Below the pieces are notes generated by a model. It was not told the DNA's origin, did no database searches, and was given only the letters and a program-made list of their open reading frames with translations. Both the position numbers and the translations under genes were made by a program. Below are positions 20,267 through 27,063 of a stretch of DNA of 36,889 nucleotides, piece after piece (the stretch's first letter is position 1; every line of letters starts with the position of its first letter). The stretch covers positions 381 through 37,269 of the forward strand of contig JAKLKS010000009.1 of assembly GCA_023150535.1 (NCBI GenBank), given 5' to 3'. This DNA comes from Planctomycetota bacterium. GTDB lineage: Bacteria > Planctomycetota > JAJSAM01 > JAKLKS01.

Positions 20267-20971
20267 ATGCAGGACTACCAGCGGCGGTTCGTGGACTTCC
20301 TGTGGGAGTGCGGGGCCTTCCGCATCGGGACCTTCACCCTCAAGAGCGGGCGCGTCTCTCCCACCTTCGTGAACCTCGGCCTCGTGGAGGACGGGCAGGG
20401 GCTGCTGCGCCTCGGCGACGCCTTCGCGGGGAAGCTCCTCGAGGTCCTGGGGCCGGACGGCTTCGACAGCGTCTTCGGCCCCGCCTACAAGGGGGTGCCG
20501 CTGGCCGTGGCCACCGCCATCTCCCTCTCGACCCGGGGCGTGCGCAAGCCCTACCTCTTCGACCGCAAGGAGAGGAAGACCCACGGCGAGGAGGCCTCCG
20601 CGAAGGCCGCGGCGGCCTCGATCCTCGTCGGCCACAGGCCCGCGGACGGGGAGCGCATCGTCATGGTGGACGACGTGCTCACCGACGGGGCCACCAAGCG
20701 GGAGGCGCTGGACCTCCTGCGCTCCCTCGTGCCCGGGGCGAGGTTCCCCGCCCTGCTCGTCGCCGTGGCGCGGGAGGAGGTGGGCCCCGACGGCCGGGAC
20801 GCGCTCGAGCGCTTCACCGCCGACACCGGGGTCCCCGTCCACCCCGCCGTGACCATGACCGAGGCGCTCTCCCACCTGCGGGACGCCGGCCGGCTGTCCG
20901 GCGCCGACCGGGAGCGCTGCTCCGCCTACCTGCGGCAGTACGGCACGCCGGCCGCCCGGGACTGGAGGTAG
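20267..20971 (+). CDS. pyrE: Orotate phosphoribosyltransferase
   Basis: The protein has 234 residues. It joins orotate and PRPP to give orotidine 5'-phosphate in pyrimidine synthesis. The PRPP-binding motif is RIVMVDDVLTDGATK (130-144). FDRKERKTHGE (98-108) is the flexible catalytic loop with the Lys/Arg residues that reach across the dimer. FTLKSGRVSPTFVNLG (23-38) is the substrate-binding N-terminal region. All the expected catalytic elements are present and the length is in the family range (about 205-235). No other pyrimidine gene is adjacent. The gene ends 21 bp from the convergent exporter gene. Confidence 0.95.
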   Translation: MQDYQRRFVDFLWECGAFRIGTFTLKSGRVSPTFVNLGLVEDGQGLLRLGDAFAGKLLEVLGPDGFDSVFGPAYKGVPLAVATAISLSTRGVRKPYLFDRKERKTHGEEASAKAAAASILVGHRPADGERIVMVDDVLTDGATKREALDLLRSLVPGARFPALLVAVAREEVGPDGRDALERFTADTGVPVHPAVTMTEALSHLRDAGRLSGADRERCSAYLRQYGTPAARDWR

Positions 20972-20992: not shown

Positions 20993-23101
20993 TCACCGCA
21001 GGAGGTCCGGGCGGAAGGCGCCCCGGATCCCCCCGAGGAGGGCCCCCGCCAGGCTCGTCCTGCCGAGGACCACGCGCACCTCCCCCACCATCCCGGGGAG
21101 GACCCGGCGATCGGGGTTCCCCGTCTCGACGATCACCTCCCAGTGCGGACCGGGGAGGTCCTTCGCCCGCGGCTCCCGGGCCGGGTCCACGGGGGCGCGG
21201 GAGACGGCCACGACCTTCCCCTCGAGGGGATCGCCGGGGCGATCGCGGAAGCGCACGGAGGCGTCCATCCCCTCCCGCACGGGCCCCGCGCCCCGGGCGT
21301 CCAGCAGGGCGCGGAACCGCAGGCGCCCGAGGTCGCCCACCCTGAGGATGGACGCGTTCCGGGTCACCGGGCTCCCCGCCAGCTCCCCCGCCCGCCGGGT
21401 CAGGACGGTCCCCGCCAGGGGGCTCGGGAGGAGGGACTTCGCGAGGCGCGCCTCGGCGCCCTCGGCCTTGAGGCGCGCCGCCTCGGCCCTGTCCTCGAGG
21501 CCCGCCGCCCGGGCCGCGTCGCCCGAGGAGTGGGCGCCGAGGGCCTCGCGGCGCAGGCGGGTGGCGTTCTCCCGCTCGACGACCGCCTCGGCCGCCTCGA
21601 CGGGGGCCTCGATCCGCAGGAGGGGCGCCCCCTCCGCCACGTCGTCCCCCTCCGCGACGAGAACCTCCGCGATGCGCCCCCGCAGCGGGGAGCGCACCTC
21701 CGCGACCCGGGCGGGCTCCGCCGGGGCCGCCGCTCCCGTCGTGCGCGTCCAGGGGACGAGGATCGCCGCCAGGAGGAGTGCGCCCGCCCCGGCCGCCGCC
21801 CGCAGCAGCGCCCCCTTCGCCCCGTGCCGCGCCACCTGCGCCGTCGCGCCCTCCCTCATCGCCTCCCCCATCGTCTTCAACGCGGGCCGCAGCATCATCC
21901 AGCCCAGGAACAGGAAGAACATCGTCATGAAGAAGCCCGGCCCCTCGCCCCCGCCGAGGCTCCCGAGCAGCAGCACCGCGATGACCAGGAGCATGGTCGA
22001 CATGTAGAGGATCGACGCGATCCCGTAGGAGGCCAGGATCCACGCCTCGCGCCGGTCCTTCGCCGCGGAGGCCGCGGGCATCCCGAGGAGCTTCCCCCGC
22101 ACCAGCCAGGCGACCTGCTTCCTCGAGCGCTCGGAGAGGTTGTCCATCCGGAGCAGGTCCGCCAGCAGGTAGTACCCGTCCAGCTTGATGAGCGGGTTGA
22201 GGTTGAACAGCAGGGTCGAGGAGAGGGAGATCATGAAGACGAGGTAGCAGACGCCGTGGAGCGCGGTCCCCTCGTCGGTCGCCGCCCAGAGGAGCACGCA
22301 GGCGGATCCGAGGACCAGCTCCACGAAGCCCCCCGCCGCCGTCACCCAGAGGCGCTGCGCCCGGCTGTCGAAGGTCCAGGCGTCGTTCACGTTGCAGTAG
22401 AAGCAGGGCTGGAAGAAGAGGAGGAGGAAGCCCATCTCCCGGACCTCCCCGCCCCAGTGCTTGCAGGCGACTCCGTGGGCGAGCTCGTGGAACATCACGA
22501 TGGTGAGCGCCGTCGCCCAGGCCCCGGCGAGGGAGAGGCCCGCCCCCCGGGTGATCTGCGTGAAGTCCCGGAGGCGGGCGAAGACCTCGTCCCCCCGGGC
22601 CACGAGGGTGCCGGCGGCCAGGGCCACGAGGATCCCCGCGAGGACGAGGAACCCGGGGGTGAACACCCAGCGCACCCTCCGCTCGAGGAAGGTGAGGATG
22701 CCGTCGGGATCGAGGAGCGGCACCCGCCAGAAGAGGACCGCACCCCACTTCCCCGCGAAGAGGCGCTCCGAGCGCCTCTGGCGGGCCTTCTCGACGAGCA
22801 GCAGGTTCCTCATCTCGGCCGTCGGCTGGACGACCTCCATCTCCCTCATCCGGGAGACGAAGCCCTCGACGTCGGCGGCCGTCACCGGCTCCTTCGCCCG
22901 GGCGGTGAAGGCGGTGGCGATCTCCGCGGCGGTGCGGTTCCCGTCCACGAGGCCGAGCATGACGGCCTCGCGCTCGCCGACGCGGAGGTACTTCCCCGAG
23001 CCGCCGGCCCGCACGACCCAGCGCACCTCGCCCCCCTCGGACTGCCGGACCACGCGGGTCCCGGCGGCGAGGACGGGGCAGTCGGGGCGTTGGTCCCCCA
23101 T
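20993..23101 (-). CDS. PqqD-like domain, M50 site-2 protease and HlyD-type adaptor fusion
   Basis: The protein has 702 residues in three parts. Residues about 1-97 resemble PqqD-type peptide-binding domains (a three-strand start, then helices around LVDGNRTAAEIATAF and TAADVEGFVSRMREMEVV). Residues 145-410 are a multi-pass M50 metalloprotease: HELAH at 205-209 with an adjacent Gly, and NPLIKLDG at 302-309 supplying the third zinc ligand. After a helix at 433-450 comes a biotinyl-lipoyl/HlyD-type periplasmic adaptor (466-700) with the half-motif SPLRGRIAEVLVAEGDDVAEG, a short helical hairpin, and a second half-motif SPLAGTVLTRRAGELAG. Such fusions occur beside GAF-HlyD and HlyD proteins in planctomycetes, and all three are present here on one strand. 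An export or processing step on a peptide or protein substrate is the likely role. Confidence 0.9.
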   Translation of the reverse strand: MGDQRPDCPVLAAGTRVVRQSEGGEVRWVVRAGGSGKYLRVGEREAVMLGLVDGNRTAAEIATAFTARAKEPVTAADVEGFVSRMREMEVVQPTAEMRNLLLVEKARQRRSERLFAGKWGAVLFWRVPLLDPDGILTFLERRVRWVFTPGFLVLAGILVALAAGTLVARGDEVFARLRDFTQITRGAGLSLAGAWATALTIVMFHELAHGVACKHWGGEVREMGFLLLFFQPCFYCNVNDAWTFDSRAQRLWVTAAGGFVELVLGSACVLLWAATDEGTALHGVCYLVFMISLSSTLLFNLNPLIKLDGYYLLADLLRMDNLSERSRKQVAWLVRGKLLGMPAASAAKDRREAWILASYGIASILYMSTMLLVIAVLLLGSLGGGEGPGFFMTMFFLFLGWMMLRPALKTMGEAMREGATAQVARHGAKGALLRAAAGAGALLLAAILVPWTRTTGAAAPAEPARVAEVRSPLRGRIAEVLVAEGDDVAEGAPLLRIEAPVEAAEAVVERENATRLRREALGAHSSGDAARAAGLEDRAEAARLKAEGAEARLAKSLLPSPLAGTVLTRRAGELAGSPVTRNASILRVGDLGRLRFRALLDARGAGPVREGMDASVRFRDRPGDPLEGKVVAVSRAPVDPAREPRAKDLPGPHWEVIVETGNPDRRVLPGMVGEVRVVLGRTSLAGALLGGIRGAFRPDLLR

Positions 23102-23120
23102 CAGGCCCCCGGAGCGCGCG

Positions 23121-24089
23121 TCACCGCCGGATCTCCACCTCCGCCTCGCCCCCGGGGCGGAAGCGGTGCCCGGGGTTGTCCGCCTCGACGACGATGCGGA
23201 TGGTCCCCGAGGCGGCGTCGAGGACGGGGGAGACGCGGGTGACGGCCCCGGAGAGCTCGGCGCCGGGGTGCCGGGGGGACCGGATCGCCGCCTTCGCGCC
23301 GCGGGCGAGCCCCTCGACCGACTCCCCCGGGAGGTCGAGCTCGACCCGCAGCCGGTCCATGTAGACGAGCTCCGCCACCACGCGGCCCGCCTCCACCCAC
23401 TGGCCCTCCTCGACCCACACCCGGGTGACGACGGCCCGGCCCTCGCGGCTCCCGGCGATCCGGGCGCGGGCGGCCTCGAGCTCCCTCTGGGCGAGGCGGG
23501 ACCTCTGCCTCTCCACCTCGACCTCGGCGAGGCGGACGTCCTCCGGCCGCGACCCCTTCTCGAGGAGGACGAGGTCGAGGCGCCTCCCCTCCGCCTGCGC
23601 CTTGGCGGCGTCCAGCATCCGCTCGGAGCGCCGCCGGCTGAGGTCGGAGAGGATCCCCCCCTTCTGGAGCTCGATGTCGGCCCGGAGGGTCCTCTCGGCG
23701 AGATCGAGGCCCGCCTGGCTCTCGGCGAGGAAGGCCTTCGCCCGCTCCAGGTCCTCGGGCCGGGGGCCGGAGCGGATCTTCGCCAGGTTGATCTCCGCGG
23801 TCTCCACGTCGTTCCGGGCGAGGGCGACCTGGATCCGCTCCTCCGCGTCGTCGAGGAGCACCACCGGCTCCCCGGGGCCGACCTCGTCCCCCTCGAGGCG
23901 CTCCACCGAGAGGACGAGCCCGGCCCGCCGCACGGCGAGCTGGAGGTGGGCCTCGGCCCGGAGGAAGCCCGCGGCGCGGAGGGGCTCCTTCCCCTCCTCC
24001 GCCGGCGCCGGGGGAGGGGCCCCCGCCCCGGCCGCCGCGAGGAGGGCGGTCGCGAGGATCGCCGCCGCCAGTCCCTTGACCCGCTCCAT
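23121..24089 (-). CDS. HlyD-like periplasmic adaptor (membrane fusion protein)
   Basis: The protein has 322 residues. The signal peptide is MERVKGLAAAILATALLAAAGAGA. It has a short lipoyl half, then a long helical hairpin rich in Leu, Ala, Arg and Glu (90-220, for example AFLAESQAGLDLAERTLRAD and LAEVEVERQRSRLAQRELEAAR). A beta-barrel end follows with VVTRVWVEEGQWVEAGRVVAELV and RFRPGGEAEVEIRR. This is the RND/ABC adaptor architecture that bridges an inner-membrane machine to the cell surface. I chose the ATG at 24089 because GGGAGG lies seven bases before it and the signal peptide begins directly there. An ATG at 24116, sharing its A with the upstream TGA stop, would add nine residues and is the alternative. 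Confidence 0.85.
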   Translation of the reverse strand: MERVKGLAAAILATALLAAAGAGAPPPAPAEEGKEPLRAAGFLRAEAHLQLAVRRAGLVLSVERLEGDEVGPGEPVVLLDDAEERIQVALARNDVETAEINLAKIRSGPRPEDLERAKAFLAESQAGLDLAERTLRADIELQKGGILSDLSRRRSERMLDAAKAQAEGRRLDLVLLEKGSRPEDVRLAEVEVERQRSRLAQRELEAARARIAGSREGRAVVTRVWVEEGQWVEAGRVVAELVYMDRLRVELDLPGESVEGLARGAKAAIRSPRHPGAELSGAVTRVSPVLDAASGTIRIVVEADNPGHRFRPGGEAEVEIRR

Positions 24090-24115
24090 GGTCCACCTCC
24101 CGGCCCAGCGCCGCA

Positions 24116-26026
24116 TCAGAGCCCCGTCTGCCACCGGACCCACCGCCAGAGGCCCGCCGCGAACCGGAGCCCCAGGCTCCGCCTCCCGGTCCTCACGTGC
24201 CCGCGCCCCTTCATGCCCGACCGGAGGCTCCCGTCCCGGTCCTCCACCGTGCAGACCACGGGGAAGCCCGGCGTCCCGCCCGCGTCCACGGCCGTCACGC
24301 CGATGGAGGCGACCCTCCCCTCGAAGATGACGCCGGGGACGGCGGGGCTCGCGAAGGAGGCGGGGAGGTCCGCCGCCAGGCCCGGGACGTCGGCCTGGGG
24401 CACGCGGATCTCCACGGTCCAGCGCCCCTCCTCGGCGATCTCGATCAGGGTCTTCCCCGGCTCCGCCGTCGTGCCGACGAGGTCCCGCGGCCTGTGGGTG
24501 AGGACGAAGCCGTCGGCGGGTGCCCTCAGGACGGCCGCCTCGATGCGCTCCTCGGTGAGCCGGATCTGCGCCTCCGCGTGGCGGGCGAGGTCCCGGGCCG
24601 CCCTCTCCTCCGCCACCCTGCCCGCGGCCTCCAGGCGCATGGCCTCGGCGCGGTGGCCCCGGGCCCGGGCGCTCAGCTCCGCCAGCTCCACCTCGAGCTC
24701 CCGGGTCCGCAGCCGGCCGAGCTCCTCCCCCTTCCGGACCGCCTGCCCCCCGTCCACGAGGATGGAGTCCACCACCAGCGGCGCGTCGGCGCGGAGGTGG
24801 TGGCGGACCGCGGGGATCACCTCGGCCTCGCCCGTCGCGTAGCGCTGGAAGGGCCAGAGGAGGAGGAGGAGGGCCGCCGCGCCGGCCGCGATCCCGGCCT
24901 TCGCCTTCGGGCCCAGCCGCCCCGCGCCTCCCGCGAGCCCTCCCCCCCCTCCCACGCTCCTCTTCCCGAGGATGCCGACGAGGGGGGTCTGGCGGTAGAG
25001 GTCGGCGTTGCGCATCGCCACGGCCACCTGGTTGGCGAAGGTCTCGACGACCTCGAGCTGCCCCTCCTCCAGGAAGTCCTCCTTCGCGGATTCCATGGAG
25101 AGCATCCCGATGAACCCGGAGTCGTCCCGCAGGGGGACGGCGAGCACCGCCTTCATGCCCGAGGACGCCGCGTGGGCCCGGAAGCGCGCCGCCTTCTGCG
25201 GGTCCTCCTCCTCCAGGGCGGCCGGGTCGGGGCTGTAGAGGGTCTTCTCGAAGCCGCGGAGCCACCCGAGGAGATCCTCCAGGGCCTTCACCTCGGGAGC
25301 CGCCCGGTCGACCTTCTCCTTCCCGGAGAGGGCCGCGACCTGGAGCGAACCGCGCCGGTCGAGGGAGACCGCGCAGCGCTCGAAGGCCACGATGCCCGTG
25401 AGCACGTTGGAGGCGGTGGTGAGGATCCGGTCGAGGTCGAGGGTCGAGGTGATCTCCCGGCTCATGCGGAGGAGGGCGCGCATCTCCTTCGCGCGGCGCT
25501 CGGTGCGCAGCAGCTGGGCGTTGCGGATGACCGCGGCGGCGTCCAGCGCGATCTCGCGGAGGAAGTCCGCGTCCTCCCGGGTGAACCGCCCCCCCGCGTC
25601 CTTCTTGTTGAGGATCTGGAGGGAGCCCAGGCACTCCCCCCGGAGGACGAGGGGCACGGTCATCATGGACTTCGTGACGAACCCCGTGGCCTCGTCCACC
25701 TGCTGGATGTGGCGGCGGTCCGCGGCGGCGTCGAGGACGACCTCGGGCTTGCGGCTCTCGGCCACGCTGCCGACGACGCCGGCCCCCCGGGGGAGCTCCA
25801 GGCCGACGATCCCCTCCCCCGCGCCCCCCGCGGCGTGGGCGCAGACGATCTTGTCGCCGCGGAGGAGCCAGATGGACCCGGCCTCGGCCCCGACGGCGTC
25901 GAGGACGAGGGCGAGGACGCGGGGAAGGAGGGCCTCCGCCTCGAGGGAGTTGTGGAGCTCCCGGGAGACCGTGTGCAGCAGCTCGAGCCGCTTCAGCCGC
26001 TCGACGGCGAATTCGCTTCCTTCCAC
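24116..26026 (-). CDS. Two GAF domains, one membrane helix and a HlyD-like adaptor domain
   Basis: The protein has 636 residues. A cytoplasmic N-terminal half holds two GAF domains, about 15-172 (MMTVPLVLRGECLGSLQILNKK in the core) and about 186-342 (AVLAVPLRDDSGFIGMLSMES). A single hydrophobic helix at 377-392 crosses the inner membrane. The C-terminal part is a short HlyD-type adaptor with a helical hairpin (440-500) and lipoyl halves (LRADAPLVVDSILVDGGQAVRKGEELG and VLRAPADGFVLTHRPRDLVG). This links small-molecule sensing inside the cell to an adaptor outside it, so export might be tuned by a ligand or by cyclic nucleotides. The GTG start is preceded by GGAGG and by TACATT at 26094-26089. 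The gene is first in the likely three-gene exporter operon. Confidence 0.88.
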   Translation of the reverse strand: MEGSEFAVERLKRLELLHTVSRELHNSLEAEALLPRVLALVLDAVGAEAGSIWLLRGDKIVCAHAAGGAGEGIVGLELPRGAGVVGSVAESRKPEVVLDAAADRRHIQQVDEATGFVTKSMMTVPLVLRGECLGSLQILNKKDAGGRFTREDADFLREIALDAAAVIRNAQLLRTERRAKEMRALLRMSREITSTLDLDRILTTASNVLTGIVAFERCAVSLDRRGSLQVAALSGKEKVDRAAPEVKALEDLLGWLRGFEKTLYSPDPAALEEEDPQKAARFRAHAASSGMKAVLAVPLRDDSGFIGMLSMESAKEDFLEEGQLEVVETFANQVAVAMRNADLYRQTPLVGILGKRSVGGGGGLAGGAGRLGPKAKAGIAAGAAALLLLLWPFQRYATGEAEVIPAVRHHLRADAPLVVDSILVDGGQAVRKGEELGRLRTRELEVELAELSARARGHRAEAMRLEAAGRVAEERAARDLARHAEAQIRLTEERIEAAVLRAPADGFVLTHRPRDLVGTTAEPGKTLIEIAEEGRWTVEIRVPQADVPGLAADLPASFASPAVPGVIFEGRVASIGVTAVDAGGTPGFPVVCTVEDRDGSLRSGMKGRGHVRTGRRSLGLRFAAGLWRWVRWQTGL

Positions 26027-26088
26027 GGACCTCCGCCCGGACCCGTTCCGTCCGCCGACGGGCCCCCTTCGCTTCCCACGGGGGGCCT

Positions 26089-26094
26089 AATGTA
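26089..26094 (-). promoter_or_regulatory. -10 element TACATT of the exporter operon
   Basis: The minus strand reads TACATT from 26094 to 26089, 62 bp before the GTG of the GAF-HlyD gene and just beyond the hairpin cluster. This would give the exporter genes their own promoter, separate from the small Pro/Gly-rich gene. No clear -35 box was seen. Confidence 0.35.
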
Positions 26095-26128
26095 GCGGGG
26101 AGAGGTCCCGGGGTGGTCCGTGAATCGA

Positions 26129-26256
26129 CCGGGCTCCCTCGCGGGAGCCCGGTTCCCCACTTTCGCTCCCGCCAGGGGGCGGGAGCTCCCTCGTCCGCCC
26201 GGGGAGGGCGGGCGCGGGACGCCGGGGGGAGTCCCCGGGCCCTCGCGGGCCCGGGG
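26129..26256 (-). terminator. Hairpin cluster after the small Pro/Gly-rich gene
   Basis: Four stems are visible. The stem 26233-26242 pairs with 26247-26256 (10 bp). The stem 26195-26200 pairs with 26206-26211 (6 bp). The stem 26165-26173 pairs with 26178-26186 (9 bp). The stem 26129-26138 pairs with 26143-26152 (10 bp). Read as minus-strand RNA, both 10-bp stems close on GCGA, a GNRA tetraloop. The first lies 23 bp past the stop of the small gene. They could end or stabilise its mRNA and partly insulate the downstream exporter genes. No long T-tract is present. Confidence 0.55.
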
Positions 26257-26278
26257 GTTTCCCGTCCGGTTCGTGCGG

Positions 26279-26959
26279 CTAGGCCTGCCCGCCGCGCAGC
26301 TGGCGCAGGATGGCCTGGCGGTGGCGCTGCAGCTCCTCCTCGGAGACCTCGTTGGGGCCGACGTTCTGCTCCGGCTCCATGTGGCGGAGGCGCGGATCCG
26401 CGGGGCCCTCGCCCTGGGCGCCCGGACGGAAGCGGCCGCCCTCGTCGCCCGGCTGCGGGATGCCGTCGTCGGGCCCGCCGCCGCCGAACTGGGGCTGGGC
26501 GCCGAAGGGGTCGTGCGGGCCGCTGTGGTGCTCGAAGCCGGGGCCGCCGGCGCCGTCGGCGAAGGGGTCGCCGCCGGGGATGCCGGGGTCGCCGCCCTCG
26601 GGGTTGAGGCCGGGGAGCGGGGGCGTGCCGTCGCCCGGGAGGGGCGGGGTGCCGTCGCCCGGGAGGGGCGGCGTGCCGTCGCCGGGGAGGGGCGGGGTGC
26701 CGTCGCCGGGGAGGGGCGGCTCACCGCCGCCGGGGAGGGGGGGATCCTCGCCGCCGACGACGTCCGGGGTGTCCCCGCCGCCGACCGTGTCCTCGAGGCC
26801 GCCACCGATGGGCAGGCCGATGCGGCTCGGGGCGATCCGGTCCTCGAGGGACTGGACGTTGAAGCCCTTGCGGCTCTTGACGGTGTTGCGGATGACCTCG
26901 GCGATCTGCTCCTCGGTCAGGGAGATGCGAATGGGCTTCAAACGCTTCGGACCCGACAT
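26279..26959 (-). CDS. Small Pro/Gly-rich protein with leader-like N-terminus and LEDRIAPS motif
   Basis: The protein has 226 residues, no cysteine, no signal peptide and no membrane segment. Residues 1-36 form a basic amphipathic region with a helix around LTEEQIAEVIRNTVKSR. Residues 38-45 are LEDRIAPS, which matches the LED-R-(I/V)AP motif seen near the N-termini of many planctomycete surface proteins. From about 50 onward the chain is Gly/Pro/Asp-rich and likely disordered, with six PPLPG units (73-117), an FG/His-rich stretch, and a final charged helix (VSEEELQRHRQAILRQLRG). The ATG has a strong GAGGAGGCAGG site. The gene lies directly upstream of the GAF-HlyD, HlyD and M50-HlyD genes and may encode the substrate of that machine. 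Function is unknown; a structural or secreted role is inferred from composition only. Confidence 0.8.
   Translation of the reverse strand: MSGPKRLKPIRISLTEEQIAEVIRNTVKSRKGFNVQSLEDRIAPSRIGLPIGGGLEDTVGGGDTPDVVGGEDPPLPGGGEPPLPGDGTPPLPGDGTPPLPGDGTPPLPGDGTPPLPGLNPEGGDPGIPGGDPFADGAGGPGFEHHSGPHDPFGAQPQFGGGGPDDGIPQPGDEGGRFRPGAQGEGPADPRLRHMEPEQNVGPNEVSEEELQRHRQAILRQLRGGQA
26609..26743 (-). repeat. 24-bp tandem repeats encoding PPLPGDGT
   Basis: The region encodes six PPLPG units at an eight-residue spacing: one with GGE, four identical PPLPGDGT units, and a last one leading into LNP. The four central DNA copies are nearly identical (CCCGGG versus CCGGGG is the main variation), so the array expanded recently or is being homogenised. 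Copy number is likely to vary between strains. Confidence 0.9.
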
Positions 26960-27034: not shown

Positions 27035-27063
27035 ACTGTACGAGGTTCTTGAGGAATCGTCAA
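27035..27063 (-). promoter_or_regulatory. Strong sigma-70-type promoter of the small Pro/Gly-rich gene
   Basis: On the minus strand TTGACG (27063-27058) and TACAGT (27040-27035) are separated by exactly 17 bp. This is the best-formed promoter in the window. Predicted transcription would start about 69 bp before the ATG at 26959, giving a leader that ends in a strong ribosome site. Confidence 0.65.

Follow-up and report, generated by a model that had tools for sequence, protein, structure and literature searches.

A Planctomycetota gene cassette and an N-terminal LE[DE]RIAP tag suggest a leader-guided export machine

The RiPP M50 proteases, which include EpeP/YydH of the epipeptides, the daptide M50 protease and TglG/TmoG, are membrane M50 proteins that act on a ribosomal precursor peptide. 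For one of them, EpeP, a published report takes both cleavage and export of the epipeptide as likely roles (PMC10885120), which provides a precedent for a single protein with both activities. The locus described here likewise encodes a membrane M50 protease beside a putative precursor, but this protease is fused to a HlyD adaptor, lies amid genes for GAF-HlyD, HlyD and TolC-type proteins, is associated with cargo of up to 2,929 aa and scores under the cut-offs for the daptide and epipeptide enzymes. As with type I secretion (ABC-HlyD-TolC), we find HlyD-type adaptors, a TolC-type channel and cargo without a Sec signal; unlike type I secretion, the cassette has no adjacent ABC ATPase, the leader is N-terminal and the inner-membrane part contains a protease. 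The predicted fold of residues 1-100 of the fusion resembles RRE/PqqD domains such as TfuB1, TbiB1 and PqqD, whereas here the RRE-like domain is attached to a membrane protease-adaptor fusion and its contact with a leader is putative. The LEPR-XLL proteins named in an earlier report (PMC10868602) also carry an LE-R-type N-terminal motif on giant surface-type proteins, but the residues after the Arg differ from those of LE[DE]RIAP. A search of open-access papers, preprints apart, yielded no description of an LE[DE]RIAP leader or of an M50-HlyD protein. The gene set and its LE(D/E)RIAP tag suggest that export here is leader-guided and uses a type of machine undescribed in the sources searched.

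The window, by which we mean the whole stretch of 36,889 nucleotides analyzed, comes from a 4.4 Mb MAG of 529 contigs that is approximately 88% complete and is placed in the Planctomycetota from its relatives. A preliminary description of this DNA had named four consecutive minus-strand genes, and all four were found at the positions given for them (Table 1). The ATG of the HlyD adaptor gene overlaps the stop codon of the GAF gene by one base, and the cargo and GAF genes lie 252 bases apart. Given this gap, the word "consecutive" is correct, but a single operon is not established. RNA folding in the gap (26027-26278) is stronger than that of shuffled sequences (z -3.7 for the stretch 26040-26285), and an Rfam search that included the gap returned no match. 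Convergent with the M50 fusion gene is a plus-strand gene at 20267-20971 whose product, by sequence reading, appears to resemble orotate phosphoribosyltransferase.

Table 1. Coordinates of the candidate export locus within the window
Feature	Position	Strand	Basis
Sigma-70-like promoter match, upstream of cargo gene	27035..27063	-	Consensus match only
Cargo protein, 226 aa, Gly/Pro-rich, without Sec-type signal peptide	26279..26959	-	Sequence
Leader, cargo residues 1-45	26825..26959	-	Gap-free alignment to Gemmatimonadota micropeptide leaders, LTxEQ...ELEERIAP
LEDRIAP motif, cargo residues 38-44	26828..26848	-	Sole such site in MAG; cassette-linked across phyla
Pro/Gly repeats of cargo: PPLP units, GDGTPPLP x4 exact	26612..26749	-	Sequence
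GAF-GAF-TM-HlyD protein, 636 aa	24116..26026	-	Pfam GAF, HlyD_D23, HlyD_3
HlyD-type periplasmic adaptor, hydrophobic signal at N-terminus	23121..24116	-	Pfam and hydropathy
RRE(PqqD-like)/M50/HlyD fusion, 702 aa	20993..23101	-	Pfam, fold, homologues
Predicted PqqD/RRE-like leader-binding domain, fusion residues 1-95	22817..23101	-	Model and PDB folds
HExxH zinc site, fusion residues 205-209	22475..22489	-	Invariant in homologues
HlyD/MacA-like adaptor half, fusion residues 450-690	21032..21754	-	Foldseek

Within the fusion protein, Peptidase M50 (PF02163; 30.7 bits against a cut-off of 27.2) and HlyD both score above their Pfam cut-offs. Residues H205, E206, H209, N302, P303 and D308 are unchanged in 24 homologues; the active site of the M50 protease that had been proposed is invariant. 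The PqqD-like domain proposed at the N-terminus is a sub-threshold match in Pfam (E 0.023; 15.5 versus 23.4 bits) and is backed by its predicted fold. In a model with a pLDDT of 81.8, residues 1-100 form three strands followed by three helices, the arrangement expected of an RRE/PqqD fold. Foldseek comparison of this model with the PDB placed TfuB1 and TbiB1, both solved with leader peptides, at the top, although with a best E value of only 1.9e-3; TglHI, a sactipeptide maturase (5wgg), ThcOx, SkfB and a heterocyclase (4v1t) came next, with a few unrelated chains interspersed. A profile search of PDB sequences ranked PqqD, PaaA, TbiB1 and TfuB1 first, none of them significant alone. The C-terminal half resembles MacA, MexA and AcrA (Foldseek, E ~1e-12). 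We rejected the fusion as a member of either the daptide or the epipeptide M50 family because it scores below both curated cut-offs, with 186 bits against 300 for the daptide model NF041824 and 46 bits against 225 for the epipeptide model NF058609 (LiaK/YydH).

The neighboring GAF-GAF-HlyD gene encodes two GAF stretches and HlyD_D23/HlyD_3 above Pfam cut-offs, with a TM segment that sequence reading puts at approximately residues 384-400, and the separate adaptor gene encodes a HlyD domain that is also above its cut-off. These two genes and the M50 fusion are kept together in most of 32 related loci; a GAF-HlyD homologue is present in most of them and went unmatched in the Pseudogulbenkiania loci. 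OEP/TolC-type genes adjoin the cassette in 15 related loci, and in the MAG of the window OEP genes lie on other contigs, unlinked to the cassette. We observed no ABC ATPase adjoining the cassette in the related loci by tblastn and a motif screen (the screen overlooked a PstB-like gene in L063, and tblastn was added); the nearest ABC ATPases are at least some 6 kb distant in L034 and L054, and in L151 they are close to a locus end. Likewise, tblastn with one RND query gave no match in the LEDRIAP cassette loci, in keeping with the earlier statement that no ABC or RND pump stands beside the cassette. The cassette encodes no energy-coupling protein, an unusual feature if proteins of more than 2,000 aa are exported.

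The cargo protein of the window contains 48 Gly and 39 Pro among its 226 residues. Its best 12-residue mean KD is 0.78, compared with 2.48 for the HlyD gene's signal peptide, which agrees with the reported lack of a signal peptide. It matched no family in Pfam or NCBIfam and, used as a query (P0001), found no relative among 59 related genomes. What is conserved is the motif and not the cargo protein. Residues 37-45 read SLEDRIAPS, and the preliminary description had taken the whole of residues 1-45 as the signal. We take the signal to be the LEDRIAP motif and not the full leader: the cargo of the window has the 37-residue amphipathic leader in common with Gemmatimonadota peptides only, and the other groups share just LE[DE]RIAP. 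Among 34 leaders, in which L-E-[DE]-R-I-A-P is fixed by selection on the motif, the flanking positions vary, but L recurs at -5 (24 of 34). No Pfam or NCBIfam model covers LE[DE]RIAP. The M50 fusion is single-copy in the MAG, as is the exact LE[DE]RIAP site in its 4.4 Mb; two other LED-R-AP-like sites (C485 and C488) were rejected as not leader-like.

We searched across phyla with the M50 fusion as the query, taking one genome per species, and obtained the 32 related loci from Gemmatimonadota, Bdellovibrionota, Pseudomonadota (Magnetococcales, Alteromonadales, Oceanospirillales and Betaproteobacteria) and Planctomycetota, together with one Myxococcota locus. Open reading frames with an N-terminal LE[DE]RIAP adjoin the cassette in related loci, with the variant LEQRIAP in L044. 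When 27 genomes with a relative of the M50 fusion were searched with a degenerate DNA pattern for LE[DE]RIAP, 23 of them gave hits, at 33 sites in total, and each site that was read back lies where an open reading frame begins; the reversed pattern hit 0 sites in the same 27 genomes. A chance neighbor effect was rejected by such reversed-pattern controls.

The same association was observed in samples of two phyla. Among 150 Gemmatimonadota genomes, 15 carry the fusion at E <= 1e-100 (14 with matches above 540 bits, and G428 weaker at 385 bits), and leader-type micropeptides occur in 10 of these 15 versus 0 of the 135 others (p ~3e-12). For genomes outside profile building the counts are 6/10 versus 0/135. 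Among 294 Planctomycetota genomes, 67 match the fusion at E <= 1e-30, and proteins with the N-terminal motif (LEERIAP) are encoded by 7 of these (G000, G031, G187, G063, G038, G097 and G080, of which the last three are one family) versus 0 of 227, with p 2.5e-5 and no score cut picked afterwards. Restricting the comparison to the 14 best-scoring genomes, a cut chosen after seeing the data, gives 7/14 versus 0/280. Calls of leader-likeness (N-terminal, in an open frame) were made by reading contexts and not by a blind rule; raw counts without this reading are 11/15 versus 15/135 (p 5e-7) in Gemmatimonadota and 7/14 versus 23/280 (p 1.2e-4) in Planctomycetota, and in all of these p values shared ancestry is not fully corrected. 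Pattern matches in approximately 23 more Planctomycetota genomes, 15 more Gemmatimonadota genomes and G442 were set aside as internal to proteins or in unlikely frames. A high-scoring M50 fusion without a recognized motif was seen in G166, G167, G078, G059, G389, G408 and G428. The co-occurrence of LED-R-IAP proteins with the cassette that had been predicted is strong and holds in two phylum samples and in the cross-phylum set, and because of these counts we do not regard the association between cargo and cassette as chance.

The cargo proteins range from 46 aa to 2,929 aa and have only the motif in common. In Gemmatimonadota they are micropeptides of about 46-59 aa, in many cases encoded as tandem sets of two or three; their leader (LTxEQ...ELEERIAP) is conserved, and the tails of 4-16 aa after IAP are variable and would suit a secreted peptide signal. 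In seven Gemmatimonadota loci (L025, L027, L034, L036, L041, L044 and L056) a divergent BTAD/AAA_16-type regulator is encoded beside the micropeptides and cassette, and a Ser/Thr kinase gene is close to some cassettes of this phylum. One planctomycete (G187) also encodes two micropeptides, of 59 and 64 aa. The Pseudogulbenkiania cargo is about 60 aa long with repeated LGYEGQPGNQ units; small leaders of this type, tandem or single, occur in L049 (9523-13362), L040 and L045, where a homologue of 2OG-Fe(II) oxygenases, encoded just downstream of M50, suggests a modified peptide. Cargo of approximately 690 to 2,929 aa occurs in Bdellovibrionota, Planctomycetota, Magnetococcales and Alteromonadales. 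The three genomes of one Planctomycetota family (G038, G097 and G080) have two to four cargo genes each that are unlinked to the cassette; a second cargo was also seen on a different contig in one Alteromonadales genome. Such unlinked cargo, and the presence of the motif on unrelated proteins, fit a trans-acting signal.

In a quick tree with SH-aLRT support only, the LEDRIAP-associated M50 fusions, including that of the window, form one supported clade. A Planctomycetota sister clade of the M50 protein is accompanied by neighbor proteins of 480-1,200 aa that begin with LEERVLFDAAP-type sequences (L066, 9674-16698; L071, 11819-13255; L072, 1-3619), and a strict LEERVLFDA pattern matched at only four places among 294 genomes, each on an M50 contig of that clade. 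The rule that N-terminal LE[DE]R tags accompany this M50 family is repeated in the sister clade. No LE[DE]R tag was seen near the M50 genes of other Planctomycetota M50-HlyD clades. In one locus of another M50-HlyD clade (L070, 6271-7004), two small open reading frames between a giant open reading frame and the GAF-HlyD gene share W..(E/D).M.T.YANV..EEV.LLFG and are possibly a different cargo or partner.

We consider it probable that the cassette matures and exports its cargo as a dedicated system guided by a leader. In the mechanism that we propose, in which the order of the steps is a guess, the N-terminal LE[DE]RIAP leader of the cargo would replace a Sec signal peptide and would be captured in the cytoplasm by the RRE/PqqD-like domain of the fusion protein. 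The leader would probably be removed by the membrane M50 site at or just after IAP, a cleavage site that is also a guess, and three HlyD-type parts would pass the cargo on: the half fused to the protease, the separate adaptor and the protein under presumed GAF control. Together with a TolC-type channel in the outer membrane, to which they would be joined, these parts would carry the cargo as far as the cell surface or the medium. Export of the cargo by the cassette is the step in which we have good confidence; binding of the leader by the RRE domain is likely, cleavage by M50 is evenly balanced, and regulation through the GAF domains is a tentative suggestion. The pathway in the preliminary description is partly supported; it survives in its co-occurrence, PqqD-like fold and lack of an adjacent pump, and gives way in its use of the whole leader as the signal; to it we add a frequent TolC-type cassette member and cargo that is sometimes unlinked and very large.

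The same parts could be explained by RiPP-type maturation only, in which leader binding and cleavage fall to the M50 fusion, a housekeeping pump or Sec moves the product and the HlyD parts act on some other substrate. In NCBIfam the closest models are indeed RiPP M50 proteases, the micropeptides pair conserved leaders with variable tails and the Pseudogulbenkiania loci include an oxygenase, but the protease is itself fused to HlyD, further HlyD genes are usually conserved alongside, often with TolC, and giant multi-domain cargo is unlike RiPP precursors; we regard this explanation as unlikely. Less likely again is retention, by which the M50 fusion and adaptors would hold LEDRIAP proteins in the envelope until M50 cleavage frees them, as a surface-display switch under GAF sensing. 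Such a switch would suit the GAF domains of one adaptor and the many cargos that look like repetitive surface proteins, with weak matches to aRib and Tcp10_C-type repeats, yet cargo without a Sec signal would still need a way out, and the role would be odd for cargo of 46-60 aa. That the small protein merely neighbors a generic HlyD cassette, with no functional link, is very improbable: the 252-base gap and the cargo gene's own promoter-like match speak for it, but the cross-phylum co-occurrence and the zero reversed-pattern background among cassette genomes argue against it.

A broader form of the export reading, to which we give somewhat less than an even chance, is that this is a distinct secretion system of at least four phyla. 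An LE[DE]R-type leader would be read by an RRE on M50, which would serve as the inner-membrane part of an ATPase-free HlyD-TolC conduit. Its cargo would include micropeptides, which are possible signals, as well as giant surface proteins, and the leader codes would be clade-specific, LE[DE]RIAP in one and LEERVLFDA in the other. If true, an N-terminal tag would predict the cargo of an unrecognized export route, and many unannotated giant surface proteins and micropeptides of Planctomycetota, Gemmatimonadota, Bdellovibrionota and Pseudomonadota would gain a testable route and cleavage hypothesis. It would also connect the way RiPP leaders are recognized with the secretion of proteins in bulk, and would raise the question of what powers export without an ATPase.
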